From contig JFAX01000011.1 in the NCBI GenBank assembly GCA_000585015.1, positions 38,810-102,809 on the forward strand: 64,000 nt of DNA. Reading direction: 5' to 3'. The stretch's first letter is position 1; every line of letters starts with the position of its first letter. Below, in pieces: positions 19,930-36,670 of this stretch. The notes beneath the pieces are model-generated. The model was not told the origin of the DNA, did not search any database, and worked only from the letters and a program-made list of their open reading frames with translations. Source of the stretch: Candidatus Accumulibacter adjunctus (GTDB lineage Bacteria > Pseudomonadota > Gammaproteobacteria > Burkholderiales > Rhodocyclaceae). A program made the translations under genes and the position numbers.

Positions 19930-21450
19930 TCAGGCGGCGACGACGGGGATCTTGCCGATCCTCGTCTGCCATTCCCGTGGTCCTGTCTCGTGCACCGACT
20001 CTCCGGTCGAATCGACCGCCACGGTCACCGGCATGTCCCTGACCTCGAATTCGTAGATCGCTTCCATGCCGAGGTCGGCAAAGCCCACCACCTTCGCTGT
20101 CCGGATCGCCTTGGCGACCAGGTAGGCGGCGCCACCGACGGCCATCAGGTAGGCCGAGCGGTGCTTGCGTATGGCGGCGATCGCCGTCGGCCCCCGTTCG
20201 GCCTTGCCGACCATCGAGATCAGGCCGGTCTCGGCGAGCATCATCTCGGTGAACTTGTCCATGCGCGTCGCGGTTGTCGGGCCGGCGGGGCCAACGGCCT
20301 CATCGCGCACCGGATCGACCGGTCCGACGTAGTAGATGACGCGGTTGGTGAAGTCCACCGGCAGCGTCTCGCCACGCGCCAGCATGTCCTGGATGCGTTT
20401 GTGAGCCGCGTCACGGCCGGTCAGCATGCGGCCGTTGAGCAGCAGGGTCTGCCCCGGCTTCCAGGCGGCGACTTCCGCCGGTGTCAGTGTGTCGAGGTTG
20501 ACACGCGTCGAAGTCTCCGTGTTGGGCGTCCAGTTCACCTTCGGCCATTGATCGAGATCAGGCGGCGTCAGCACCGCCGGACCGGATCCGTCGAGGTGGA
20601 AGTGTGCATGGCGCGTCGCCGCGCAGTTCGGAATCATCGCCACTGGCAGGCTGGCGGCATGCGTCGGATAATCGAGAATCTTGACGTCGAGGACCGTGGT
20701 CAGGCCGCCCAGACCCTGGGCACCGATGCCGAGCGCGTTGACCTTCTCGTACAGTTCGAGGCGCAGCTCCTCGACACGGTTGCTGGCTCCGCGGGCGATC
20801 AGTTCGTGCATGTCGACCGGCGCCATCAACGATTCCTTGGCGAGCAGCATCGCTTTCTCGGGAGTGCCACCGATGCCGATGCCGAGGATGCCCGGTGGAC
20901 ACCAGCCGGCGCCCATCGTCGGCACCGTCTTGAGAACCCAGTCGACGATCGAGTCCGACGGGTTGAGGGCGTAGAACTTGGACTTGTTCTCCGAGCCACC
21001 GCCCTTGGCAGCGCAGATGACTTCGACATGGTGACCGGGGACGATCTCGAAATGGACGACCGCCGGCGTGTTGTCGCGCGAGTTCCGGCGCGTACCCGCC
21101 GGGTCGAGCAGGACCGATGCACGCAGCTTGTTGTCCGGGTGGTTGTAGGCGCGGCGGACGCCCTCGTCGCACATCTCCTGCAGCGACAGCCTGGCGTCCC
21201 AGCGGACCTCCATGCCCACCTTGAGAAAGATCACGGCGATGCCCGTGTCCTGGCAGATCGGCCGGTGGCCTTCGGCGCACATGCGGCTGTTGGTGAGGAT
21301 CTGGGCGATCGCGTCGCGCGCCGCCGGGCTCTGCTCACGCTCGTAAGCGGCGCCCAAGGCCTTGATGTAGTCCAAGGGATGATAGTAGCTGATGTACTGG
21401 AATGCGTCGGCAACGCTCTGAATGAAGTCTTCCTGCTTGATCGTGGTCAT
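19930..21450 (-). CDS. fumarate hydratase, class I (Fe-S)
   Basis: PICQDTGIAVIFLKVG...AAKGGGSENKSKF...GIGIGGTPEKAMLLAKESL. Confidence 0.94.
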   Translation of the reverse strand: MTTIKQEDFIQSVADAFQYISYYHPLDYIKALGAAYEREQSPAARDAIAQILTNSRMCAEGHRPICQDTGIAVIFLKVGMEVRWDARLSLQEMCDEGVRRAYNHPDNKLRASVLLDPAGTRRNSRDNTPAVVHFEIVPGHHVEVICAAKGGGSENKSKFYALNPSDSIVDWVLKTVPTMGAGWCPPGILGIGIGGTPEKAMLLAKESLMAPVDMHELIARGASNRVEELRLELYEKVNALGIGAQGLGGLTTVLDVKILDYPTHAASLPVAMIPNCAATRHAHFHLDGSGPAVLTPPDLDQWPKVNWTPNTETSTRVNLDTLTPAEVAAWKPGQTLLLNGRMLTGRDAAHKRIQDMLARGETLPVDFTNRVIYYVGPVDPVRDEAVGPAGPTTATRMDKFTEMMLAETGLISMVGKAERGPTAIAAIRKHRSAYLMAVGGAAYLVAKAIRTAKVVGFADLGMEAIYEFEVRDMPVTVAVDSTGESVHETGPREWQTRIGKIPVVAA

Positions 21451-21508
21451 TTGAGCTTCTCTCTCGGTGAATGGCAGCGTGCTTGCTGCTGCGGATGTCG
21501 GTTCACTC

Positions 21509-22066
21509 TCAGTGACGCGCGCCGTGGGACGGCTTGCTCAGCGCCACCGTCGTCGTCATCAGCCGGTCGACCCACGCCATCGCCAGCGCCGAAAGCAGGA
21601 AGACGACATGGATCACGACCTGCCACTTGATCGTGTGCTCGGTCATGTTGTCGGCGTTGATGAAGGTCTTCAGCAGGTGGATCGAGGAGATGCCGATGAT
21701 CGCCGTCGACAGCTTGATCTTCAGCACGCCCGCATTGACGTGCGACAGCCATTCGGGCTGGTCCGGGTGACCTTCGAGATCGAGTCGGGAGACGAAGGTC
21801 TCGTAACCACCGATGATGACCATGATCAGCAGGTTGGCGATCATGACCACGTCGATCAGACCGAGGACGACGAGCATGACCTCGGTCTCGGTGATGCGCG
21901 TGCTGCTGAAGAACAGGTTGTGGATCAGGTGCCAGAGTTCGAGCATGAACAGGTACACGTAGGCACACTGGGCGATGATCAGGCCGAGGTAGAGCGGTGC
22001 CTGCAGCCAGCGGCTCCAGAAGATGAACGTTTCCAGGCGGTCGATGGTTGGTTTGAGGGAACTCAT
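21509..22066 (-). CDS. yqhA: TIGR00645/YqhA family inner membrane protein
   Basis: [33 protein letters not shown]...[13 protein letters not shown]. Confidence 0.9.
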
Positions 22067-22319
22067 GGGCTTGCCAGGGGGGTGATCGGGATGCCGGATT
22101 CTAGCACCAAAGATTGACCCTTTTGCCGCATGCGGGGAATCGCCGCCGTGTAAGTGGGATGTAAGATTTCCGGCGTCTAATCGGTTGCGATTGGCGTTCC
22201 TGCAGGCAGCCACGGGGGGTGAAGCCGTGCGTCGCGGTTGCTGGCGTGTCGCGTGCCGGCGACGTCATTGTCTGTGTTCGAGTCGTCTGTCGTCCACCAT
22301 AAATCAGAGGAGATGGAAC

Positions 22320-24284
22320 ATGTCACTGAACGAGGCCGTAAACTTCTTCGCGCCCTCCGCCGAGTTCGTCAAGCAGGCGACCATTTCGGGCATGGACGCC
22401 TACAAGGCGCTCTGTGCCGAGGCCGACAAGGACTACACCGGTTACTGGGCGAGGCTGGCGCGCGAACACGTGTCCTGGAAGAAGCCGTTCACGCAGGTTC
22501 TCGACGAGTCCAACGCTCCCTTCTTCAAGTGGTTCGCCGATGGCACGCTGAACGCCTCGTACAACTGTCTGGACCGCAACGTCGAAGCCGGTCTTGGCGA
22601 CAAGGTGGCGATCGTCTTCGAGGCCGATGACGGCGCCGTGACCAGGGTCACCTACCGCCAGTTGCTGGCGCAGGTCAGCCAGTTCGCCAACGGTCTGCGC
22701 GCGCGCGGCATCAAGAAGGGCGATCGCGTGCTGATCTACATGTCGATGGGCGTCGAGGGAATCGTCGCCATGCAGGCCTGCGCGCGCATCGGCGCGATCC
22801 ACTCGGTCGTCTTTGGCGGCTTCTCGGCGCAGTCGGTCCGTGACCGCATCAACGATGCCGGTGCCGTGGCGGTGATCACCGCCGACGAGCAATGCCGCGG
22901 TGGCAAGAATCCGCCGCTCAAGCCGGCCGTCGACGAGGCCATCGCCCTGGGCGGCTGCGAGTCGATCCGGGACGTGATCGTCTTTCGCCGCACCGGCGGC
23001 GCCTGCAACATGGTTGCCGGCCGCGACATCTGGTGGCACGACGTCATCGCCGGTCAGTCCGACGTCTGCGAGCCGGAGTGGGTCGAGGCCGAGCATCCGC
23101 TGTTCCTGCTCTATACCTCGGGTTCGACCGGCAAACCGAAAGGCGTGCAGCATTCGACCGGCGGCTACCTGCTGCACGCCATCGTCACGACCAAGTGGAC
23201 CTTCGACCTGAAGCCCGACGACCTCTTCTGGTGCACGGCCGACATCGGCTGGGTCACCGGTCACACCTACATCGCCTATGGTCCGCTGGCCTGTGGCGCG
23301 ACCGAGATGGTCTTCGAGGGGATTCCGACCTATCCCGATGCCGGTCGCTTCTGGAAGATGATCCAGGAACACCGGGTCAGCATCTTCTACACCGCGCCGA
23401 CCGCCATCCGCTCGCTGGTCAAGGCTGCCGACACGAATCCGGCGGTCGCTCCGACGCAGTACGATCTGTCGTCGCTGCGCCTGCTCGGCACGGTCGGCGA
23501 ACCGATCAATCCGGCCGCCTGGCAGTGGTACTACGACAGCGTCGGCGGTGGTCGCTGCCCGATCGTCGACACCTTCTGGCAGACCGAGACCGGCGGCCAC
23601 ATGATCACGCCGCTGCCCGGCGTCACGCCGCTGGTGCCCGGTTCCTGCACCCTGCCTTTCCCGGGCATCCAGGCGGCGGTGGTCGATGAGACCGGTACCG
23701 AGCTCGACTGGGGCAAGGGCGGCCTGCTCGTCGTCAAGCGGCCGTGGCCGTCGATGATCCGCACCATCTGGGGCGATCCCGAGCGCTTCAAGAAGTCGTA
23801 CTATCCGGATGATTTCGCCGGCAAGCTCTACCTCGCCGGCGACGGGTCGATCCGCGACCTCAACACCGGCTACTTCACCATCACCGGCCGCATCGACGAC
23901 GTGCTGAACGTCTCCGGGCACCGCATGGGCACCATGGAGATCGAGTCGGCGCTGGTGTCGCATCCGATGGTCGCCGAAGCGGCGGTCGTCGGTCGTCCGG
24001 ACGACCTGACCGGCGAGGCCATCTGTGCCTTCGTCGTTCTCAAGGGTCCACGCCCGACCGGCGAAGCAGCGAAGAAGATGGTCAAGGAGTTGCAGGACCA
24101 CGTCGGACGCGAGATCGGCCCGATTGCCAAGCCGAAGGACCTGCGCTTTGGCGAGAACCTGCCGAAGACCCGTTCCGGCAAGATCATGCGGCGCCTGCTG
24201 CGTTCGCTGGCCAAGGGTGAAACGGTTGCGCAGGACGTCTCGACGCTGGAAAACCCGGCGATCCTCGAGCAGTTGCGCGGCTGA
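22320..24284 (+). CDS. acs: acetyl-CoA synthetase (AMP-forming)
   Basis: [42 protein letters not shown]. Confidence 0.93.
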
Positions 24285-24314
24285 GCGAGCGGGGCTTCGA
24301 AGCAACGCTTCCGG

Positions 24315-24352
24315 CGCTGGCGGAGAGCGGCGGTTGCCGCTCTCCGCCAGCG
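24315..24352 (+). terminator. Strong hairpin after acs
   Basis: cgctggcggagagcgg-cggttg-ccgctctccgccagcg, 16 bp perfect stem 31 bp after the acs stop; no U-tract. Confidence 0.6.
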
Positions 24353-24471
24353 AGGCCTGAACGGGTCGGGTGCTTCTCGGGCCCTGGACCCGAAGCGGCG
24401 GGCACGAGGCGGACATGCCCAGCCGGCGCCAGCGGTGCCGGCCGGTTCATTCGTGCCGATCAAGGAGCAGC

Positions 24472-26382
24472 ATGAGCACCAGTGCGGTCGACACGCTCAT
24501 TTCTGCGTGCATTCGGTTCCTGCAGGCTTACCCGCCCTTCGAGCAGATGGAGGCGGCGGCATTGCGCTTCCTTGCCGAGCGTGTCCGGCTGCAGCACTAC
24601 CCGAAGGGAGCGCGTATCCTGTCGACCGAGATGGGCGTCGCGCACGCCCTCTACATCATCCACCGTGGACGGGTGCGGGCGAAATCCACCGTCGGCCTTG
24701 GCAGTGGCGAAACGACTTCGTCGACGCTCGGCCCCGGACAGGCGTTCGCCATCGGTGCCCTGATGGCCCAGAGGCCGACCTTCGGCTCCTACGAGGCGGT
24801 CGACGAGGTCTTCTGCTATGAGCTCGCAGCAGACGACTTCTTTGCCTTGACGCAGAAGAGTTCGGCCTTCAACCTGTTCTGCACGCAGCACATCGCCGGC
24901 CTCCTCAAGCAGTCGCAGCAGCAGCTGCAATTGCAGTTCGCGCAGCGCGCCGCCGAACAGAAGACGATGAACTCGCCACTCGCGGCAGTCGTCAAGCGCG
25001 AAGCCGTTGCGGTTGCCACGACCGCATCGATTCGCGAGGTCGTCGAACTGATGGCCGAACGGCACCTCGGTTCGATGGTCGTGGTCGACGAACAGGAAGT
25101 GCCGGTCGGCATCTTCACCCTGTCGGACGTCCTCAAGCGCATCGTCCTTCCCGGCGCGTCACTCGCGCAGCCGATCGCGACCGTCATGTCGCCGGCGCCG
25201 GCGACCCTGCCCCTGGCGGCGAATGCGCACGATGCGGCCCTGCTGATGGCGATGCGCGGGATTCGCCATGTGCTCGCGGTCGACGAGGGGGGTCGCCTGC
25301 GCGGCGTGGTTTCGGAGCGCGATCTGTTCAAGCTGCAGGGAGCGGGCCTGCGGCAGATTCGACATGCGATCGATGCCGCGAACAGCCTCGAGGTGCTGCA
25401 GCATGCGCGCCGCGATGTGCGGCAATTGTCCTTGACGATGCTCGCCGAGGGCGTTGGCGCGGCGGAGATCACGCAGTTCATCTCCACCCTCAACGACACC
25501 GTGACGCGCCGCATCATCGAGCTGAATCTCGAGCGGCATGACCTCTATGGCATCGACTGGGCCTGGTTGTCCTTCGGGTCCGAGGGGCGGGATGAGCAGA
25601 CCTTCACCACCGATCAGGACAACGGGATCGTTTTCATCTGCACCGACATCATGGATCGCGAATTGACCCAGTTGCGCTTCCTCGATTTTGCACGCGATGT
25701 CAACGCGGATCTGGATCGCTGCGGGTTTCCGCTGTGCAAGGGCAACATCATGGCGAGCAACCCGGACCTCTGCCTGACCCTCGAGGAGTGGGAGGAACGG
25801 TTCGCGCGCTGGGTGCGGATGCCGGAGCCGCAGGCCTTGCTCAACGCAACGATCTTCTTCGACTTCCGTCCGCTCTTCGGCCGCTTCAATCTCGCCCACC
25901 GGCTGCGCCGGGAGCTGTTCCGGCAGACGCGTGGCAATCCGCTGTTCCTGCGCATGCTGGCCGAGAATGCACTGAGCGTGGCGCCACCTCTTGGACGGAT
26001 CCGCGACTTCGTCACCAGCACCGACCCGGAGCACCCGGGCACCATCGACCTGAAGACCTATGGCGTCCGCCTGTTCACCGACGCGGCGCGGGTCTTTGCT
26101 CTGGCGAATGCGGTCGAGGCGACCAACACCGTGCAACGGCTCCGGCGTGCCGGTGCCGTGATGAACATCGGCACTGACGATCTGGCGGCCAGCATCGAGG
26201 GCTTCAATTTCATCCAGCTTCTGCGGCTGCGTCATCAGCATTTCGAGCAGGAGCACGGGCGGCCGGGCGACAACCTGATCCGGCCGGACGATCTGAACGA
26301 GATCGAGCGGCGCGTCCTCAAGGAGGCCTTCCGCCAGGCGCGCAAGCTGCAGGCTCGCCTCAAACTTGACTACCAACTCTGA
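24472..26382 (+). CDS. cyclic-nucleotide-binding/CBS/DUF294 putative nucleotidyltransferase
   Basis: cNMP-binding-like N-term, tandem CBS domains, DWAWLSFGSEGRDEQTFTTDQDNGIVF (DUF294 GSxGRxEQ...D). Confidence 0.92.
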   Translation: MSTSAVDTLISACIRFLQAYPPFEQMEAAALRFLAERVRLQHYPKGARILSTEMGVAHALYIIHRGRVRAKSTVGLGSGETTSSTLGPGQAFAIGALMAQRPTFGSYEAVDEVFCYELAADDFFALTQKSSAFNLFCTQHIAGLLKQSQQQLQLQFAQRAAEQKTMNSPLAAVVKREAVAVATTASIREVVELMAERHLGSMVVVDEQEVPVGIFTLSDVLKRIVLPGASLAQPIATVMSPAPATLPLAANAHDAALLMAMRGIRHVLAVDEGGRLRGVVSERDLFKLQGAGLRQIRHAIDAANSLEVLQHARRDVRQLSLTMLAEGVGAAEITQFISTLNDTVTRRIIELNLERHDLYGIDWAWLSFGSEGRDEQTFTTDQDNGIVFICTDIMDRELTQLRFLDFARDVNADLDRCGFPLCKGNIMASNPDLCLTLEEWEERFARWVRMPEPQALLNATIFFDFRPLFGRFNLAHRLRRELFRQTRGNPLFLRMLAENALSVAPPLGRIRDFVTSTDPEHPGTIDLKTYGVRLFTDAARVFALANAVEATNTVQRLRRAGAVMNIGTDDLAASIEGFNFIQLLRLRHQHFEQEHGRPGDNLIRPDDLNEIERRVLKEAFRQARKLQARLKLDYQL

Positions 26383-26384
26383 GC

Positions 26385-27098
26385 ATGAGCTGGTTCTCGC
26401 GCCTTCTCGGTGCCCGGGACATTCCCGGCGTGGCCCTGACGGCCCGGCAGGAGCAGCTTCTGGGCGGCTGGCAGCAGTTGCCCGACGCCGACCTGCGGCG
26501 GTCGCACTATCGCTCTCGCTACGTGGTGATCGATGTCGAGGCGAGCACTGGCAATCCAGACACTGCCCGTCTGCTTTCGATTGCCGCCGTGGCGGTGATC
26601 GATGGCCAGATCTCTTTCCTGGATGCCTGGCGACTGGTGTTGGAAGAACAGGCTGCGGGGGCGGATCCGGTGCCGTCGCCGGCCGTCGCGGCGACCGAGT
26701 CGCTGGCTGGCTCGTCGCTGGCGGATGAGTTGATCTCCTTCCTCGGTTTCGTCGGCAAGGCGCCCATGGTGGCCTACAACGCCCGCTTCGTCAGAAGGCT
26801 CTTGCAGAGGACCCTGGCGGAGCATCTCGGTGTGCGGCTGCGACTGCCGTGGCTGGATCTGGCGTGGATCCTGCCCGACCTCTTCCGCGAGGTCGATGCC
26901 GGCCCCGCGCGGCTCGACGCCTGGCTGGAGCACTTCGGCATCAGCAGCATCCGACGCCATGAGGCATTGTCGGACGCTCTTGCCACCGCGCAACTGATGC
27001 AGATCGCCGTGGCCCATGCCGCCCGCAAAGGAATCGACACCCCGGCCAACTTGCGCGAACTGGAGAAGGCGCGCCGGCACATGCACCAGAGCGCCTAG
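26385..27098 (+). CDS. 3'-5' exonuclease (DnaQ-like)
   Basis: YVVIDVEASTGNPDTARLLSIAAVAVIDGQI; later YNARFVRRLL and RRHEALSDALATAQL. Confidence 0.85.
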   Translation: MSWFSRLLGARDIPGVALTARQEQLLGGWQQLPDADLRRSHYRSRYVVIDVEASTGNPDTARLLSIAAVAVIDGQISFLDAWRLVLEEQAAGADPVPSPAVAATESLAGSSLADELISFLGFVGKAPMVAYNARFVRRLLQRTLAEHLGVRLRLPWLDLAWILPDLFREVDAGPARLDAWLEHFGISSIRRHEALSDALATAQLMQIAVAHAARKGIDTPANLRELEKARRHMHQSA

Positions 27099-27110
27099 AG
27101 AGGGCCGGCG

Positions 27111-29147
27111 ATGGCCGACCAAACGGAGAGGCTGCGGCGTTACTACGCTTCCTACACGCTCGGGTTCTTCGCCTTCGTCCTCATGCTGGCGGTGCTCGAG
27201 CGCTACGGCATGCCACCACGCTGGATCGGCTACTCCTTCCTGCTGTTGACGATCTTCCTGTACGCGACGATCGGCGTCCTGGCGCGGACCACCAGCGTTG
27301 CCGAATACTACGTTGCCGGCCGCCGCGTGCCGGCCGTGTTCAACGGCATGGCCACCGGCGCCGACTGGATGAGCTCCGCCTCGTTCATGGGCCTGGCGGG
27401 AACCCTGTATCTGTCGGGCCATCAGGGGTTGGCCTACGTCATGGGGTGGACCGGCGGCTACGTCCTGGTGGCGTTGCTGCTGGCACCCTATCTGCGCCGC
27501 TTTGGCCGATATACGATCCCGGACTTTCTTGCGGCCCGCTATGGCGGCAATCCGGCACGGGTGGTCGGGGTCCTGGCGACCATCCTGGCATCGTTCGTCT
27601 ACGTCGTTGCGCAGATCTACGCCGTTGGCCTGATCACCAGCCGATTCGTCGGGCTGCAGTTCGAGATCGGCGTCTTCGTCGGTCTCGCCGGCATCCTGGT
27701 GTGCTCCTTCCTCGGCGGCATGCGTGCCGTGACCTGGACGCAGGTGGCGCAGTACGCGATCCTGATCGTCGCCTACCTGGTTCCGGTGACCATTCTCTCG
27801 CACGAGGTGACCGGAGTTCCCTTGGCGCAGCTGACCTATGGCGGCGTGCTGCAGCAGGTGCAGGTGCTGGAGGAGAGAATCTTCGGTGATCCCGGCGAAA
27901 TCGAGGCGCGCCGCCTGTTCCGCGAACGTGCCGATGCCTACCACGACCGCATCCTGTCGCTCCCCGAGTCGCTTGCCGAGGAGCGACGCGAACTGGCGGC
28001 CCGGATCAACGATCTGAAGAACGACAACGCACAGATGCGCGAGATCGTGGCGCTTGAACGCGAGCGCCGGGAACTGCCGCGAAACAGCGAAGACGCGCGT
28101 AACTACTGGGAGACCCACATGCGCCAGGCGGCGCAGCGGGGAGCCGATCCCGATCATCACATGACCGCCTACCCAGGCCAGGGCGAGTCGGTGAACGAGG
28201 TGGCACGGGCGAATTTCCTGACCCTCGTCTTCTGCCTGATGATCGGTACGGCAGCCTTGCCGCACGTCCTGACGCGCTATTACACCACGCCCGGTGTTCG
28301 CGACGCGCGCCTTTCGGTGTTCTGGTCGCTGCTCTTCATCCTGGCGCTGTACCTGACGGCGCCGGCCTATGCGGCCTTCGTCAAGCATGAAATCTACTCG
28401 CACCTGGTGGGGTCGCCGATCGCGCAACTGCCGCTGTGGGTGAGCTCGTGGGGCAAGATCGGCATGGTGTCGATCGAGGACATCAACGGCGACGGTATCG
28501 TGCAGCTGGCGGAACTGGTGCTCAACCCGGATGTGATCCTGTTGGCGACGCCGGAGATCGCCGGTCTGCCCTACGTCATTTCCGGTCTCGTGGCAGCCGG
28601 TGCGCTGGCGGCCGCGCTGTCCACCGCGGACGGCCTGTTGCTGACCATCGCCAGCGCGCTGTCGCATGACCTGTACTACAAGATCTTTCGCCCGCAGGCG
28701 ACGACACAGTGGCGGTTGGTCGTCTCCAAGTCGTTGCTGCTCGTCGTTGCGGTGCTGGCAGCCACGGTCGCTTCACAGAAGCCGGCGACGATCCTGTTCA
28801 TGGTGGCCTGGGCCTTCTCCCTTGCCGGCTCAGCGCTGTTCCCGGCGCTGATCGTCGGCGTGTTCTGGAAACGGGCGACGCGTGCCGGGGCCGTCAGCGG
28901 CATGCTCGTCGGTCTGCTGGTGACGCTTTACTACATGGTCCGCGTGCAGTTCGACTCGATCCCCTGGCTGCACATCCAGGGCATCGGCATGGAGCCATGG
29001 CTCGGGATCCAGTCGACATCGGCTGGCGTCTGGGGCGTCGCTGCCGGCTTCGCGACGATCGTCATCGTCAGCCTGTTGGACAAGCCACCAAGCAAGGAGA
29101 CGCAGGACTTCGTCGAGAGCGTTCGCTACCCGGAGTTCGACCGCTGA
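27111..29147 (+). CDS. sodium:solute symporter, VC_2705-type (acetate/monocarboxylate-like)
   Basis: VAEYYVAGRRVPAVFNGMATGADWMSSASFMGLAG; long charged insert and DINGDGIVQLAE loop. Confidence 0.9.
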   Translation: MADQTERLRRYYASYTLGFFAFVLMLAVLERYGMPPRWIGYSFLLLTIFLYATIGVLARTTSVAEYYVAGRRVPAVFNGMATGADWMSSASFMGLAGTLYLSGHQGLAYVMGWTGGYVLVALLLAPYLRRFGRYTIPDFLAARYGGNPARVVGVLATILASFVYVVAQIYAVGLITSRFVGLQFEIGVFVGLAGILVCSFLGGMRAVTWTQVAQYAILIVAYLVPVTILSHEVTGVPLAQLTYGGVLQQVQVLEERIFGDPGEIEARRLFRERADAYHDRILSLPESLAEERRELAARINDLKNDNAQMREIVALERERRELPRNSEDARNYWETHMRQAAQRGADPDHHMTAYPGQGESVNEVARANFLTLVFCLMIGTAALPHVLTRYYTTPGVRDARLSVFWSLLFILALYLTAPAYAAFVKHEIYSHLVGSPIAQLPLWVSSWGKIGMVSIEDINGDGIVQLAELVLNPDVILLATPEIAGLPYVISGLVAAGALAAALSTADGLLLTIASALSHDLYYKIFRPQATTQWRLVVSKSLLLVVAVLAATVASQKPATILFMVAWAFSLAGSALFPALIVGVFWKRATRAGAVSGMLVGLLVTLYYMVRVQFDSIPWLHIQGIGMEPWLGIQSTSAGVWGVAAGFATIVIVSLLDKPPSKETQDFVESVRYPEFDR

Positions 29148-29219
29148 TGGGCCGGTGGCCGACGGCCGGGAGAACCTCTGCCTGTGGTCGGCAGGGCGGA
29201 TGGCGCCTGGTGGGTGACG

Positions 29220-29489
29220 ATGCGGCTCGATGAGCGGCAGCGCGCGTACTGGCGGCGCAACCTTCGCCTGACGGCGTGGCTGCTCGGCTTGTGGTTCTTC
29301 GTTTCCTTCGTCGTCAGTTTTTTTGCGCGTGAAGTCGAGCACATCCTGTTCCTTGGCATGCCGCTTGGTTTCTACATGGGAGCCCAGGGAGCACCGCTGA
29401 CCTACCTGCTGATCATCTGGTGGTACGCGCGGCGGATGAACGCGCTTGACCGTGACTACGGTGTGGAGGATGCCGAAGACGAGGACTAG
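29220..29489 (+). CDS. DUF4212 sodium/substrate symporter small subunit
   Basis: [40 protein letters not shown]...[33 protein letters not shown]. Confidence 0.9.
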
Positions 29490-29647
29490 GAACTGCACCG
29501 GCGCCATCCGCGGACGGGACTGCCGGTCGCGCGTGCTGCCCGCGGCGAGGCGCTGCCGGCACTGGCGCCGGGAGGAGCGCGCGCGATTTTCCCTGCCGCG
29601 GCGCATGGTACAATCCTCCTCCCTTCAAGGCTCGTGAGGCGTATGCG

Positions 29648-30898
29648 ATGTTTTCAGTCAAAGACACCCTGGCGCAGGTAGACCCCAAGATCTGGCAGGC
29701 CATCCAGGACGAAAACCGTCGCCAGGAAGAGCACATCGAACTGATTGCCTCGGAGAACTATGTCAGCCATGCCGTGATGGCGGCGCAGGGTTCGCAACTG
29801 ACCAACAAGTACGCCGAGGGTTATCCCGGCAAGCGCTATTACGGCGGCTGCGAGCATGTCGATGCGGCGGAACAGCTGGCGATCGAGCGATTGAAGAAGC
29901 TGTTTGGCGCCGAGGCAGCGAACGTGCAGCCCAATTCCGGTTCGCAGGCGAATCAGGCCGTACTGATGGCCTTCGCCAAACCGGGTGACACGATCATGGG
30001 AATGAGTCTGGCCGAAGGAGGCCACCTGACGCATGGCATGCCGCTCAACATGTCCGGCAAGTGGTTCAATGTCGTCGCCTACGGCCTCGACAAGCATGAG
30101 GCGATCGACTACGACAGGATGGAAGCGCTGGCGCGCGAGCACCGGCCACGCATACTGATCGCCGGTGCCTCGGCCTACTCCCTGTGCATCGATTTCGAAC
30201 GCTTCGCCGCCGTGGCGAAGGAAATCGGGGCGATCTTCATGGTCGACATGGCGCACTACGCGGGCCTCATCGCCGCCGGCTGTTATCCCAACCCGGTGCC
30301 CTGTGCCGACGTCGTCACGTCGACGACGCACAAGACGCTGCGTGGTCCCCGCGGTGGTGTCATCCTGATGAAGGCGGAACACGAGAAGGCGATCAATTCA
30401 GCGGTCTTCCCGGGGCTGCAGGGCGGTCCCCTGATGCATGTCATCGCTGCCAAGGCGGTTGCTTTCAAGGAGGCACTGACGCCGGCTTTCCGCGATTACC
30501 AGGAACAGGTTCTGGCCAACGCGCGTGTCCTGGCACGCGTCCTGGCGGAAGAGCGCGGGCTGCGCATCGTCTCGGGTCGCACCGAATCGCACGTCTTTCT
30601 CGTCGATCTGCGCGCCAAGGAGATCACCGGCAAGGACGCTGAAGCCGCTCTCGGCGCGGCGCACATCACGGTCAACAAGAACGCGATTCCGAACGACCCG
30701 CAAAAGCCTTTCGTCACGTCGGGTGTTCGCATCGGCTCGCCGGCGATGACGACACGCGGCTTTACCGAGATTGAGTCGGAGCAGGTCGCGCACCTTATCG
30801 CCGATGTCCTCGATGCACCGGCTGACGAGGCAGTCCGGCTCCGGGTGCGGGCCGAGGTCGCCACATTGTGCAGGAAGTTCCCCGTTTATGGCGGGTAG
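29648..30898 (+). CDS. glyA: serine hydroxymethyltransferase
   Basis: [44 protein letters not shown]. Confidence 0.98.
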
Positions 30899-30903
30899 CA
30901 GCG

Positions 30904-31374
30904 ATGAAGTGCCCGTTCTGCGGTGCTGCCGAGACGACTGTCGCCGACACGCGGATCAGTGACGATGGCGACATCGTCCGCCGGCGGCGGCGGTGTCTGA
31001 AGTGCGACAAGCGCTTCACGACCCACGAACGGGCCGAGCTGCGGATGCCGCAGGTGATCAAGAAGAACGGCTCGAGGGTCGAGTTCGACCGCGAGAAGCT
31101 GGCCGCCAGTCTCGATCTGGCATTGCGCAAGCGGCCGGTGAGCAGCCAGGCGGTCGAGGCGGCGATCAGCCGCATCGAGGAAAAGCTGCTCGCACTCGGC
31201 GAGCGTGAGGTGGCTTCAGACAAGCTCGGCGAGATGGTGATGCGTGAGTTGAAGAAGCTCGACAAGGTGGCGTACGTCCGCTTTGCCTCGGTCTATCGGA
31301 ATTTCGAGGACGTGGACGAGTTCTCCAAGGTCATCCGTGAGGTCTCGCGGTCGGCCCAGCCGCTCGGTCGCTGA
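30904..31374 (+). CDS. nrdR: transcriptional repressor NrdR
   Basis: [42 protein letters not shown]. Confidence 0.98.
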
Positions 31375-32483
31375 TGCAACCCGCGTTCAGCGCGGCGGAT
31401 CATGAGTTCATGGCGCGAGCGCTGCGCCTTGCCGAGCGCGGCCTGCTGACGACCACGCCGAATCCGCGCGTTGGTTGTGTCATCGTGCGCGATCGACAGG
31501 TCGTCGGCGAAGGCTGGCATGTGCGGGCCGGCGGCCCGCATGCCGAAGTGCATGCGCTGCGGGAGGCTGGCGACAAGGCCCGTGGCGCCACCGCCTTCGT
31601 TACCCTGGAGCCCTGCAGCCATCACGGCCGTACGCCCCCTTGCGCCGAGACTCTGTTGGCGGCCGGCGTGCACCGGGTCGTCGCCGCCATCGAGGATCCG
31701 AATCCGCTGGTTGCCGGTCGCGGGCTGGCGGCCCTGCGACAGGCGGGCGTGCGCGCCGAATGTGGTTTGCTCGCCGACGCGGCGCGGGAACTCAACATCG
31801 GCTTCGTCAGCCGCATGACACGCGGCCGACCGTGGCTGCGGCTGAAGCTCGCCGCCAGCCTGGACGGCAAGACGGCGCTGTGCAACGGCGCCAGCCAATG
31901 GCTGACCGGCCCGGCCGCGCGGCAGGACGGTCATCGCTGGCGGGCACGCGCCTGCGCGATCCTGACCGGCAGTGGCAGCGTGCGGGCGGACGATCCGCAG
32001 CTCAACGTCCGCGGGATCGCGGAACTGCCCACCGAGATCGTCCGGCAGCCGCTGCGGATCGTCGTCGACAGTCGCCTCGAGGTCTCGCCGGACGCGCGGG
32101 TGCTGCAGGGTGGTGGCACCCTGGTCGTTGCTGCAGTGACTGACCGTGCCCGCAGCGCGGCGCTCGCCGAGTTGGGCGTCGAAGTCCTGCTGCTGCCCGG
32201 TTCGGACGGCCGGGTCGATCTGCGCGCACTGCTTGCCGAACTGGCCCGGCGCGGCATCAACGAACTGCACGTCGAAGCCGGCTTCGTACTCAGCGGCGCC
32301 TTGCTGCAGGCGGGCCTGGTCGATGAACTGCTGCTCTATCTGGCGCCTTGTCTCGTCGGCGATCTGGCGCGCGGAATGTTCGCTCTGCCGCAGCTCGAGT
32401 CGCTGGCCGGCAGGAAGCAGCTGCTCATTCGCGACGTTCGCCTGCTGTCTCAGGATCTGCGGCTGCTGGCGCGTTTCAGCTGA
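31374..32483 (+). CDS. ribD: bifunctional riboflavin deaminase/reductase
   Basis: HAEVHALREAGDKARGATAFVTLEPCSHHGRTPPCAE. Confidence 0.97.
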   Translation: MQPAFSAADHEFMARALRLAERGLLTTTPNPRVGCVIVRDRQVVGEGWHVRAGGPHAEVHALREAGDKARGATAFVTLEPCSHHGRTPPCAETLLAAGVHRVVAAIEDPNPLVAGRGLAALRQAGVRAECGLLADAARELNIGFVSRMTRGRPWLRLKLAASLDGKTALCNGASQWLTGPAARQDGHRWRARACAILTGSGSVRADDPQLNVRGIAELPTEIVRQPLRIVVDSRLEVSPDARVLQGGGTLVVAAVTDRARSAALAELGVEVLLLPGSDGRVDLRALLAELARRGINELHVEAGFVLSGALLQAGLVDELLLYLAPCLVGDLARGMFALPQLESLAGRKQLLIRDVRLLSQDLRLLARFS

Positions 32484-33234
32484 GCGTCGACGGTGCGCAG
32501 ACCGCGCACCGGGGATCACGCCCGAAGCGGACACTGCGCCAGTCCATCGTCAGGCCATCAAGCAACCACAACCGCCCGAGAGTGACCTCGCCGGCGCCGG
32601 CAATCAGCTTGAGCGCTTCGGCTGCCTGCATCGTGCCAATGATGCCGGTGAGCGGTGCAAAGACGCCCATCACGGCGCAGCGCGGCTCGTCGGCTTCGCC
32701 TGTTTCCGGAAACAGGCAGTTGTAGCAGGGGCCGTCGCCACGACGGCTGTCAAAGACCGCGAACTGGCCGGCGAAGCGGATGGCTGCACCCGACACCAGT
32801 GGTTTGCGATGGCTGACGCAGGCCCGATTGACGGCGTGCCGCGTGGCAAAGTTGTCGCTGCAGTCGAGCACGACGTCGGCGTCGGCGACCAGCGCTGCCA
32901 GTGCACCGCCGCTGACGCGTTGGGGTACCACTTCGACGTGGATCTCGGGGTTGATGCCGTGCAGTGCCGTCTGGCCGGAGGCAACCTTGCTCTGGCCGAG
33001 GCGCTCTTCGCTGTGCAGAATCTGGCGCTGCAGGTTGGTCAGGTCGACGGTGTCGCCGTCGGCCAGGGTGATCCGGCCAACGCCGGCGGAGGCCAGATAG
33101 AGCGCTGCCGGCGAGCCGAGTCCGCCGGCACCGATGATCAGCGCGCTCGCATCGACCAGGCGCTGCTGCCCGGCGATGCCGATCTCGTCGAGCAGGATGT
33201 GTCGGCTGTAGCGCAGCAACTGCCGGTCGTTCAT
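32476..33234 (-). CDS. moeB: HesA/MoeB/ThiF family adenylyltransferase
   Basis: MNDRQLLRYSRHILLDEIGIAGQQRLVDASALIIGAGGLGSPAALYLASAGVG. Confidence 0.92.
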   Translation of the reverse strand: MNDRQLLRYSRHILLDEIGIAGQQRLVDASALIIGAGGLGSPAALYLASAGVGRITLADGDTVDLTNLQRQILHSEERLGQSKVASGQTALHGINPEIHVEVVPQRVSGGALAALVADADVVLDCSDNFATRHAVNRACVSHRKPLVSGAAIRFAGQFAVFDSRRGDGPCYNCLFPETGEADEPRCAVMGVFAPLTGIIGTMQAAEALKLIAGAGEVTLGRLWLLDGLTMDWRSVRFGRDPRCAVCAPSTLS

Positions 33235-33245
33235 CGCGCGGGAGC

Positions 33246-33665
33246 TTACTTGTACTCTCGCCACTCCGGCGGCGTGTCGTCGTGGTCACCGTGTGGGTGG
33301 CGCTCCCAGGCATGGGTATAGGCCTGCGACTGCGAGCGCTTCAGCGGCCGTGCCGGGGTCTGCAGATTGTGCAACTGGGTTTCCTCGACGTAGTGGATCA
33401 GTGCCCGCACCATCTTGCTCAGCAGGGTGTTGTCGAGGTGGTGGCCGCGCTCTTCCAAGGACGTCTCGAGTTCCTGCAGCGAGTGTTGCCGCAGGTCATA
33501 GGCGACGACGATCTCGCGCTGCTGCTCGTGCGGTTCGACGAGCAACTGCTCGAGGCTGTCGAGGTAGGCGGCAGCCTCGGGGATCTGCCCAGGTGGGAGC
33601 CGCGCGAACACGATGGTCCGCTGCTTGCGGATCGGTGGTGGGGCTGGCGCAGCCGGTCGTTTCAC
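33246..33665 (-). CDS. conserved hypothetical protein
   Basis: 139 aa ORF between moeB-like and ctp genes on the same strand; coherent acidic/basic composition. Confidence 0.5.
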   Translation of the reverse strand: MKRPAAPAPPPIRKQRTIVFARLPPGQIPEAAAYLDSLEQLLVEPHEQQREIVVAYDLRQHSLQELETSLEERGHHLDNTLLSKMVRALIHYVEETQLHNLQTPARPLKRSQSQAYTHAWERHPHGDHDDTPPEWREYK

Positions 33666-33687
33666 CTTCGCTGTCCACCGGCGCGAG

Positions 33688-35121
33688 TCAGCGCGCCGTC
33701 TTCATGATCTGCATGCCCTTGAGCAGGTTGAGTGCCTGATTGAGCTGGTAGTCCTTCTTCGACGCCAGTTCACGGCTGGGCATTTCGGCAGCCTCGTCGG
33801 CATCGTCCTTCGGCACGCTGCCCTTCGGCTTCGCCGGCGCCACCGGCTTGGCGGGTTTCGCCGGCGCTTCCTTGGCCGGCGTACTGCCTTCCTTGTCGTT
33901 GTCGAGATGGTGCTCGAGGTTGGCTTCGCGCAAGCGCTCGGCCGAGGTGCCGTTGGCGCTCTCCTCGACGACGATGTCCGGGACGATCCCCTTGGCCTGG
34001 ATCGAGCGGCCGGACGGCGTGTAATAGCGCGCGGTCGTCAGCTTGATCGCCGTGTTGCCCGGCAGCGGCAGGACGGTCTGCACGGACCCCTTGCCGAAGG
34101 TGGTGGTGCCGAGGACGACGGCGCGCTTGTGGTCCTGCAACGCGCCGGCGACGATCTCGGAAGCCGACGCCGAGCCACCATTGACGAGTACCACCATCGG
34201 CACGGAACGCGCCTCCGGCGGCAGGTTCCGGATGTAATCGTCCCGGCTGCCACGCAGGTAGTCGCTCGGCGAGGTCGAATACCGGTGCTTGGCATCGGGT
34301 GCGCGGCCGTCGGTCGAGGTGACCAGGGTTTCCGGCGGCAGGAAGGCCGCGGAAACTCCGACGGCACTGTTGAGGAGGCCGCCGGGGTCGTTGCGCAGGT
34401 CGAGTACCAAACCCTTCAGTGGCCCATTCCGGAAGAGGTCGTTGAGGTGCTTGACCACCGCCGCGCCCGTGTTCTCCTGGAACGAAGTGATGCGCAGGTA
34501 GCCGTAACCGTCCTCGACCAGTTTCGACTTGACGCTCTGCACCTTGATCACTTCACGCGTCAGGGTGACATTGATCGGTTTTGCCTCCCCCTTGCGGACG
34601 ATCGACAGCCTGATCTGCGACTTCGGCTTGCCGCGCATGCGTTTGACGGCCTCCGTCAGCGTCAGTCCCTTGACGAGGGTGTCGTCGATCTTGAAGATCA
34701 GGTCACCGGTCTTGATGCCCGCCCGGTACGCTGGCGTGTCCTCGATCGGCGAGACGACCTTGACGAGGCCGTCTTCCATGCCCACCTCGATGCCGATGCC
34801 GCCAAATTCGCCCTGCGTTCCGACTTGCAGATCCTTGAACGCGTCGGCGTCAAGGTAGCTCGAGTGCGGGTCGAGGTTGGAGAGCATGCCGCTGATGGCG
34901 TGCGTGATCAGTTTCTTGTCCTCGACCGGCTCGACGTAGCCGCTCTTGATGGCGTTGAAGACTTCCGCAAAGGTGCGCAGTTCCTCGATGGGCAGGCTGG
35001 CGCGTGTTTCCTTGTCAGCGATCGCCGAAAACTGCAGGCTGATCAGCACGCCGCCCAGCAACCCCGCGCCGACCAATCCGGCCTGTCTCAACTTGCCCAT
35101 TCGTCTCACTCCAGTGCGCAT
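33688..35121 (-). CDS. S41 family C-terminal processing peptidase
   Basis: PDZ GIGIEVGMEDGLVKVVSPIEDTPAYRAGIKTGDLI; LVNGGSASASEIVAGALQDHKRAVVLGTTTFGKGSVQT; start uncertain. Confidence 0.94.
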   Translation of the reverse strand: MRTGVRRMGKLRQAGLVGAGLLGGVLISLQFSAIADKETRASLPIEELRTFAEVFNAIKSGYVEPVEDKKLITHAISGMLSNLDPHSSYLDADAFKDLQVGTQGEFGGIGIEVGMEDGLVKVVSPIEDTPAYRAGIKTGDLIFKIDDTLVKGLTLTEAVKRMRGKPKSQIRLSIVRKGEAKPINVTLTREVIKVQSVKSKLVEDGYGYLRITSFQENTGAAVVKHLNDLFRNGPLKGLVLDLRNDPGGLLNSAVGVSAAFLPPETLVTSTDGRAPDAKHRYSTSPSDYLRGSRDDYIRNLPPEARSVPMVVLVNGGSASASEIVAGALQDHKRAVVLGTTTFGKGSVQTVLPLPGNTAIKLTTARYYTPSGRSIQAKGIVPDIVVEESANGTSAERLREANLEHHLDNDKEGSTPAKEAPAKPAKPVAPAKPKGSVPKDDADEAAEMPSRELASKKDYQLNQALNLLKGMQIMKTAR

Positions 35122-35248
35122 CATCTTGTGTGCGTCGCCGATGGGTGGGCAGAAACCGTGCTCAAGCCCGCTGGCTGCTGCACAGGGGGGGTTCTGCTCG
35201 CCCATGCCCGTCGTCCGGGCCCGCTGGCGACGGGTTGTCAACAGGCCT

Positions 35249-36670
35249 TCAGTGCCTGGCGCCGACCCAGGCCATCGGATCGAGCGGTCTGCCCTGATGG
35301 CGCAGCTCGAAGTATAAACCGGATTCCGGATTGCCACCGCTGTTGCCGACGGTGGCGATCACCTCGCCCAAACGCGCTTCCTCGCCGACGTTCTTCAACA
35401 GCGACTCGTTGTTGGCATAGATCGACAGGTAGCCGCCGCCATGATCGACGATCATCAGGTTGCCGAAGCCGCGCATCCATTCGGCGAAGACGACCTTGCC
35501 GGCGGCGATGCTGCGCACCTCACTGCCATTGCTGGCCAGGATGAACAGGCCCTTCCAGTTGCTCCCCTCCTGTCGCGTGGTGCCAAAGCGATTGCTGACG
35601 GATCCTCGCGTCGGCAGGCGCAACTGTCCCTTCAGACGCGCCAGGCCAGCGGCGCCAGTCGTCGAGGACGCTTCCTCGGCACGACTTGCCGCCGCTGGCG
35701 ACACCGCGCGCGTGTCGCCGGCAGCGGCTTCCGCCGGCGATGCCGGCTCGCGGGCTTCGGGGGATCTTGCCGGCTCGCGCCGCTGCGCTTCACGGCGGGC
35801 GTCGCCCGCCTGCGCGGCAAGGATTCGCGCCAGTCGGTCGACGAGTTCAGCCAAGCGCCTCTCATCGCGCTGCAGGCTGCCGATCTCCCGCCGCTGTGCG
35901 GCGATCTGCTCCGAAACCTTGGCAAGAGCCAGTTGCCGCTGCTGTCGTTGCGCAATCAACCGGGCATGCTCCTCTCGCTGCCGGGCCTCGCTGGTGGCGA
36001 TCAGATCGGCCTGTTGGCGGGTCTCGCGGGCGAGCGCCTGCTGGCGCTGCAAGTTCGCCTCGATGTCGCGCAGGATCTCGCGCCGTGCACGGCCGATCAT
36101 CTCGAGATAGTGGAGGTCGCGCGCCAGCTGGTTCGGGTCATCGCCGTTGAGGAACATGCGCACTGGATCGGGATTGCCCCGCAGGTACTGTCGGTGCAGG
36201 AGGCGTGCCAGTTGCTCCTGCTGCGCGTTGAGTACCCGGCCGAGATCACCCGACTGCCTTTCCAGTTCGTTGAGGCGAGCCCGCAGTCTCTCGGTCTCGC
36301 TCCCCGTTTCGTGCAGTTGGCGTTGGGTGGCCGAGATGGCGCGCTCCGCTTCCTGCAACTGATCGACGGCGTCCCTGCGCGAACCTTCGGCGGCGCTCAT
36401 CTGCCGGCGAAGCGCTTCGATCTGGCTGCGCAGCGACTTCAGGTTGCCTTGCTTTTCAGCCACCTCGCCAGCGGCCGCCGGGTCCACGCCGGCCGCCGGG
36501 TGACGACTGCCGGCCATCGCTGCCGGCACCAGAGCGCCGAGCAGCAGGGCGAGGAGGCCCAGGCAGCGCCAGTTCGAGGCTGCGAAGGCGGCGGGCGCTT
36601 CGCTCCTGGCCGTCGTCGCTCGGCTGTTCGGCCCCGCTCTCGCCTGCCGACAGCCGCTCGAGGTGACCAT
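35249..36670 (-). CDS. murein hydrolase activator EnvC-like (coiled coil + M23/LytM domain)
   Basis: coiled coil, then LMIVDHGGGYLSIYANNESLLKNVGEEARLGEVIATVGNSGGNPESGLYFELRHQGRPLDP. Confidence 0.92.
   Translation of the reverse strand: MVTSSGCRQARAGPNSRATTARSEAPAAFAASNWRCLGLLALLLGALVPAAMAGSRHPAAGVDPAAAGEVAEKQGNLKSLRSQIEALRRQMSAAEGSRRDAVDQLQEAERAISATQRQLHETGSETERLRARLNELERQSGDLGRVLNAQQEQLARLLHRQYLRGNPDPVRMFLNGDDPNQLARDLHYLEMIGRARREILRDIEANLQRQQALARETRQQADLIATSEARQREEHARLIAQRQQRQLALAKVSEQIAAQRREIGSLQRDERRLAELVDRLARILAAQAGDARREAQRREPARSPEAREPASPAEAAAGDTRAVSPAAASRAEEASSTTGAAGLARLKGQLRLPTRGSVSNRFGTTRQEGSNWKGLFILASNGSEVRSIAAGKVVFAEWMRGFGNLMIVDHGGGYLSIYANNESLLKNVGEEARLGEVIATVGNSGGNPESGLYFELRHQGRPLDPMAWVGARH

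Follow-up and report, generated by a model that had tools for sequence, protein, structure and literature searches.

The locus raises the question of why a transporter should carry what looks like the loop of a calcium-binding protein. In the 64,000-nucleotide stretch of Candidatus Accumulibacter adjunctus DNA analysed here (the window), the gene at 27111-29147 on the forward strand contains, at 28479-28514, twelve codons that a sequence-only reading took for a canonical EF-hand loop between the predicted TM helices of a VC_2705-type solute symporter, from which it proposed Ca2+ binding or gating of an acetate-type transporter next to acs. What has to be asked is which transporter this is, where the loop lies, whether it is an EF-hand, and what a calcium ion would do there.

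The 678-residue product is recognised by TIGR03648 (“VC_2705 family sodium/solute symporter”) with an E value of 1.4e-226 and 753 bits, the cut-off being 320.75, and it also matches the SSF family (Pfam ID PF00474), so the proposed family assignment holds. The AlphaFold2 (AF2) model, built on an alignment of 74 sequences (pLDDT 92.8, pTM 0.92), contains 14 TM helices, and its best Foldseek matches in the PDB are SGLT2, SiaT, SGLT1, CHT1, and NIS, with E values of about 1e-14 and a probability of 1.00 for SGLT2, SiaT, and CHT1. The model shows the five-plus-five inverted repeat of the SSS/LeuT fold, with TM1 and TM6 broken at residues 87-88 and 382-383. In TM8, Ser504 and Thr505 are conserved in 90% or more of the homologues, and we take this pair to be the counterpart of the Ser/Thr pair at the Na2 site of PutP.

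The symporter gene is adjoined by a gene for a DUF4212 small subunit (29184-29489, forward strand; TIGR03647 with E=1.1e-29; Pfam ID PF13937), whose true start is probably the ATG at 29220. Here this partner gene follows the symporter gene on its downstream side, whereas in most of the other Burkholderiales loci fetched it directly precedes it. The genes on the other side, all on the forward strand, are acs, encoding acetate-CoA ligase (22185-24284; TIGR02188 with E=6.8e-287; true start probably near 22320), a gene for a cNMP-binding/CBS/DUF294 nucleotidyltransferase-like protein (24370-26382, by Pfam), and one for a DnaQ-like 3'-5' exonuclease (26385-27098; Pfam ID PF00929). Both of the latter are common neighbours of TIGR03648 symporters in the named loci, the cNMP/CBS/DUF294 gene being adjacent in many of them. 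The full-length family match, the adjacent partner gene, and the nearby acs are shared with VC_2705/TIGR03648 plus DUF4212 systems, of which the symporter described here represents a long form with an extra helical insert in extracellular loop 3 (EL3). A riboswitch candidate has been tied to TIGR03647 (PMC6429828); a scan of positions 20000 to 36000 with Rfam models, which may not include that candidate, gave no family at or above its gathering score.

This setting also bears on the substrate. Although flanks are often short, acs is found within the available flank in at least 19 of 80 named loci and DUF4212 in at least 67 of 80. The linkage of acs, DUF4212, and VC_2705 is also seen on four plasmids from haloarchaea and in Paracoccus denitrificans. 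TM6 carries the ActP-like motif GTA-LPH-L-R-Y/F-T, and, together with the acs linkage, this makes acetate the likely substrate, in agreement with the acetate-type transporter first proposed. Na+-coupled carboxylate transport is predicted from the family, Ser504/Thr505, the acs linkage, and TM6. The protein shares the SSF fold and the TM6 motif with ActP and MctC, but ActP is accompanied by DUF485 instead of DUF4212, has a short extracellular loop 4 (EL4) without the calcium-type loop, and is only 26% identical to the symporter. An identity with ActP was rejected, TIGR02711 giving 167 bits where its cut-off is 1099. On a Paracoccus alcaliphilus plasmid (L198), a DUF485-ActP pair fills the slot of DUF4212-VC_2705 in the order acs, small subunit, symporter, DUF294, and thus stands in the equivalent place beside acs; the arrangement suggests that the two pairs are functionally exchangeable.

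The twelve codons translate exactly to DINGDGIVQLAE (residues 457-468), within the open reading frame of the symporter, and the 13-mer DINGDGIVQLAEL matches the PROSITE pattern PS00018 in full, so the loop sequence was correctly recognised. Against a background of shuffled copies of the same protein, 0.00025 matches to PS00018 are expected per copy, which, together with the conserved columns described below, rules out a chance origin of the motif. The AF2 topology places the loop between two TM helices, as the sequence-only reading had supposed, namely TM7 (396-432) and TM8 (488-526), outside the membrane in EL4 (residues 433-487, 28407-28571 on the forward strand), and excludes a location within a TM helix. 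EL4 is modelled with a pLDDT of 94-98, and of about 97 at the loop itself, as a helix (442-449), a strand (453-455), the calcium-type loop, a three-residue turn (466-468), an exit strand (469-471), and a second helix (473-483). A single Lys or Arg is found in EL4 (counted over residues 431-488) versus three to four in most cytoplasmic loops, which supports a periplasmic location. The extra insert of the long form lies on the same side; it is an all-helical element in EL3, about 120 residues long (approximately residues 239-358, 27825-28184 on the forward strand), with helices at 239-344 and a pLDDT of 89-98. EL3 is 93-175 aa in the long form versus 43-59 aa in the short form, which lacks the insert; the long form is mostly betaproteobacterial. 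The AF2 model of a short-form member has the same strand-loop-strand order, again outside the membrane.

Whether this is an EF-hand has to be answered in two parts. The 12-residue consensus of PS00018 is present with all its ligand positions, and to this extent the name was justified; the loop is, however, unpaired and framed in the models by strands instead of helices, and Pfam EF-hand models give no match at E<=10 for the loop segment and none at E<=1 for the whole symporter, which together rule out a true EF-hand domain. The homologues do conserve D1, [DN]3, D5, and G6 together with an acidic ligand further on, and the loop shares these features, as well as the strand-loop-strand arrangement, with the Dx[DN]xDG loops surveyed outside EF-hands by Rigden and Galperin (PMC3123361). 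Strand-loop-strand settings are documented for these loops, whose Ca2+ binding does not depend on the fold around them (PMC3123361). On the combined strength of sequence and model, we classify the loop as a Dx[DN]xDG calcium-type loop in a structural context other than the EF-hand and predict that it binds Ca2+. The putative ligands are D457, N459, D461, the carbonyl of I463, and E468. The words “symporter” and “transporter” are absent from the main text of the survey, whereas the loop described here sits in EL4 of a LeuT-fold symporter, and in the limited set of open-access papers searched we found no report of a calcium loop in TIGR03648 symporters or in the EL4 of any SSS transporter.

Homologues were collected from genomes (299 spanning the phylum, 101 belonging to the same family), from the 80 named loci (nearly all betaproteobacterial), from two more alphaproteobacterial samples, and from plasmids, giving 254 sequences in total. 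The plasmid search gave no match at 1e-60 with the long form as the query, and with the short form it returned alphaproteobacterial, gammaproteobacterial, and haloarchaeal relatives. Among the long-form homologues, D457, N459, and D461 are kept in 115/115, Glu or Asp at position 12 of the loop (residue 468) in 110/115, and G462 in 109/115. Positions 456, 458, and 460 vary widely, 470 is variable too, and the median column entropy of EL3 and EL4 is 1.98 bits; the ligand positions named by the sequence-only reading are thus conserved well above their neighbours. Their codons vary synonymously (GAC/GAT 83/32, AAC/AAT 90/25, GAC/GAT 90/25, and GAG/GAA 58/49), indicating that the conservation acts on the protein level. 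The five exceptions with Gly at position 12 include four from named loci, all of them Caballeronia (L166, L170, L171, and L178), where DVNGDG is retained with Gly in place of Glu and the site may be partly lost.

In the short form, the loop reads DKNGDG[RK][IM], keeping DxNxDG; between it and a conserved [NSG]E[LMV] further on lies an insert that ranges from a few residues to about 50. The conservation of this motif past the insert and directly before the exit strand indicates that the position of the Glu ligand is retained. A second TIGR03648 paralogue of the short form is encoded in the same genome (L060, contig C5), with the extended loop DKNADGRIQYY...NEL and a C-terminal end that runs into a stretch of N. 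More divergent members show other ligand sets compatible with calcium, for example, DVDGNGRVGISE and DLNKDGILAVKE.

An alphaproteobacterial lineage and several divergent relatives have replaced D-x-N-x-D by C-x13-C, with the consensus CGx[AN]Ax8AC. The 254 sequences comprise 213 of the calcium type, 29 of the cysteine type (L083, L086, L199-L212, L227-L229, L239, L246, L247, L249, L252, and L257-L262), 0 with both, and 12 with neither. Both cysteine columns are 100% Cys in the cysteine type (n=29) and 0% Cys in the calcium type (n=213), and the spacing of exactly 13 residues is found in 29/29 sequences. On a tree computed without the EL3 and EL4 columns by a quick method, in which the placement of some long branches is uncertain, four changes are required to account for the cysteine state, and well-supported branches make at least two of them unavoidable. 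The pair is most simply read as a disulfide in the oxidising periplasm, presumed to stand in for the Ca2+ ion. An engineered precedent is a polyester hydrolase in which a disulfide in place of a Ca2+ site made the enzyme calcium independent and more stable (PMC4856421). Asp is still present at position 12 in 27/29 cysteine-type sequences, and this acid may have a role besides Ca2+ binding. The 12 sequences with neither state include one ActP added for comparison and four haloarchaeal members, which have a short EL4 without the calcium-type loop and without the cysteine pair. These four are encoded on plasmids of Haloferax, Halococcus, Haladaptatus, and Halocatena (L189-L192) in the gene order acs-DUF4212-VC_2705.

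The swap between the two types suggests that the loop is held in place either by calcium or by a disulfide. EL4 is a moving lid in many LeuT-fold transporters, and the explanation that we consider probable is that the Dx[DN]xDG loop in EL4 of this sodium/carboxylate (probably acetate) symporter binds periplasmic Ca2+ as a structural staple, for which a disulfide substitutes in one lineage. In the Ca2+-rich periplasm, D457, N459, D461, the carbonyl of I463, and E468 would hold one ion more or less permanently, and this ion would tie the entry strand (453-455) to the exit strand (469-471). Pinned in this way, the EL4 hairpin that joins TM7 to TM8 would be fixed in length and position, and, by analogy with PutP, it probably covers the periplasmic entrance; in the C-x13-C lineage, the disulfide would do the job of the ion. 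Titles cited in PMC7918813 describe EL4 as governing the periplasmic entrance in PutP.

The loop might also bind no metal at all, DxNxDG being a tight Asx/Gly turn for the hairpin that has come to resemble an EF-hand loop by convergence. The ion is so far only predicted, the Pfam EF-hand models do not match, position 12 can be Gly, and the cysteine-type sequences keep the acid there, all of which would fit such a turn. A simple turn, however, has no need of side-chain oxygens at positions 1, 3, 5, and 12, and it leaves unexplained the complete match to PS00018 at the low expectation given above, the distant Glu retained past long inserts in the short form, and ligand swaps such as DxDxNG that keep the calcium chemistry, so that we regard a metal-free loop as unlikely.

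The gating part of the original proposal fares no better. Reversible Ca2+ occupancy in the physiological range would here switch EL4 between open and closed and so set acetate uptake, an idea that draws on the location of the loop in EL4, on the control of the entrance by EL4 that the same cited titles attribute to PutP, and on the dopamine transporter, which is modulated by Zn2+ bound partly via EL4 residues (PMC3578762). The dopamine transporter likewise has a metal at EL4 of a LeuT fold, but its inhibitory Zn2+ is bound by His, Glu, and Asp of separate elements (EL2/EL4), whereas the symporter has one contiguous calcium-type loop whose side-chain ligands are all local, with none spread over moving parts. 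A Ca2+ switch is also hard to reconcile with a lineage in which a cysteine pair replaces the Asp/Asn triad, a disulfide not being such a switch, and with haloarchaeal members that have neither state beside acs and DUF4212, which makes Ca2+ control dispensable for transport. The cysteine swap and these haloarchaeal members argue for a constitutive staple rather than a Ca2+ switch, and we consider the regulatory gate improbable. A variant in which external Ca2+ is an allosteric ligand setting the balance of the EL4 gate, with the C-x13-C lineage locked in a state like the Ca2+-bound one and possibly redox switchable, appears doubtful as well. A docking surface, on which the loop together with the helical insert of EL3 would bind another periplasmic protein or the DUF4212 subunit with the metal being incidental, is very unlikely, for although the model places both EL3 and EL4 in the periplasm and DUF4212 lies beside the symporter gene in the named loci counted above, short-form members without the insert carry the loop too, and the surface residues 456, 458, 460, and 470 are free to vary, unlike those of an interface.

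Both the symporter family and the type of calcium loop were already known; as far as our limited open-access search goes, their combination in EL4 of an SSS transporter is new. With the calcium staple as the preferred reading, this widespread symporter family, in which most members fix the lid with a metal loop and another lineage does so with an invariant pair of cysteines, offers a natural experiment on lid rigidity, and D457, D461, and E468 provide single-residue handles on how much of that rigidity is required. If the reading is true, the known settings of Dx[DN]xDG calcium loops would come to include a membrane transporter, and acetate uptake would be predicted to depend on Ca2+ in proteobacteria such as Accumulibacter-like organisms.
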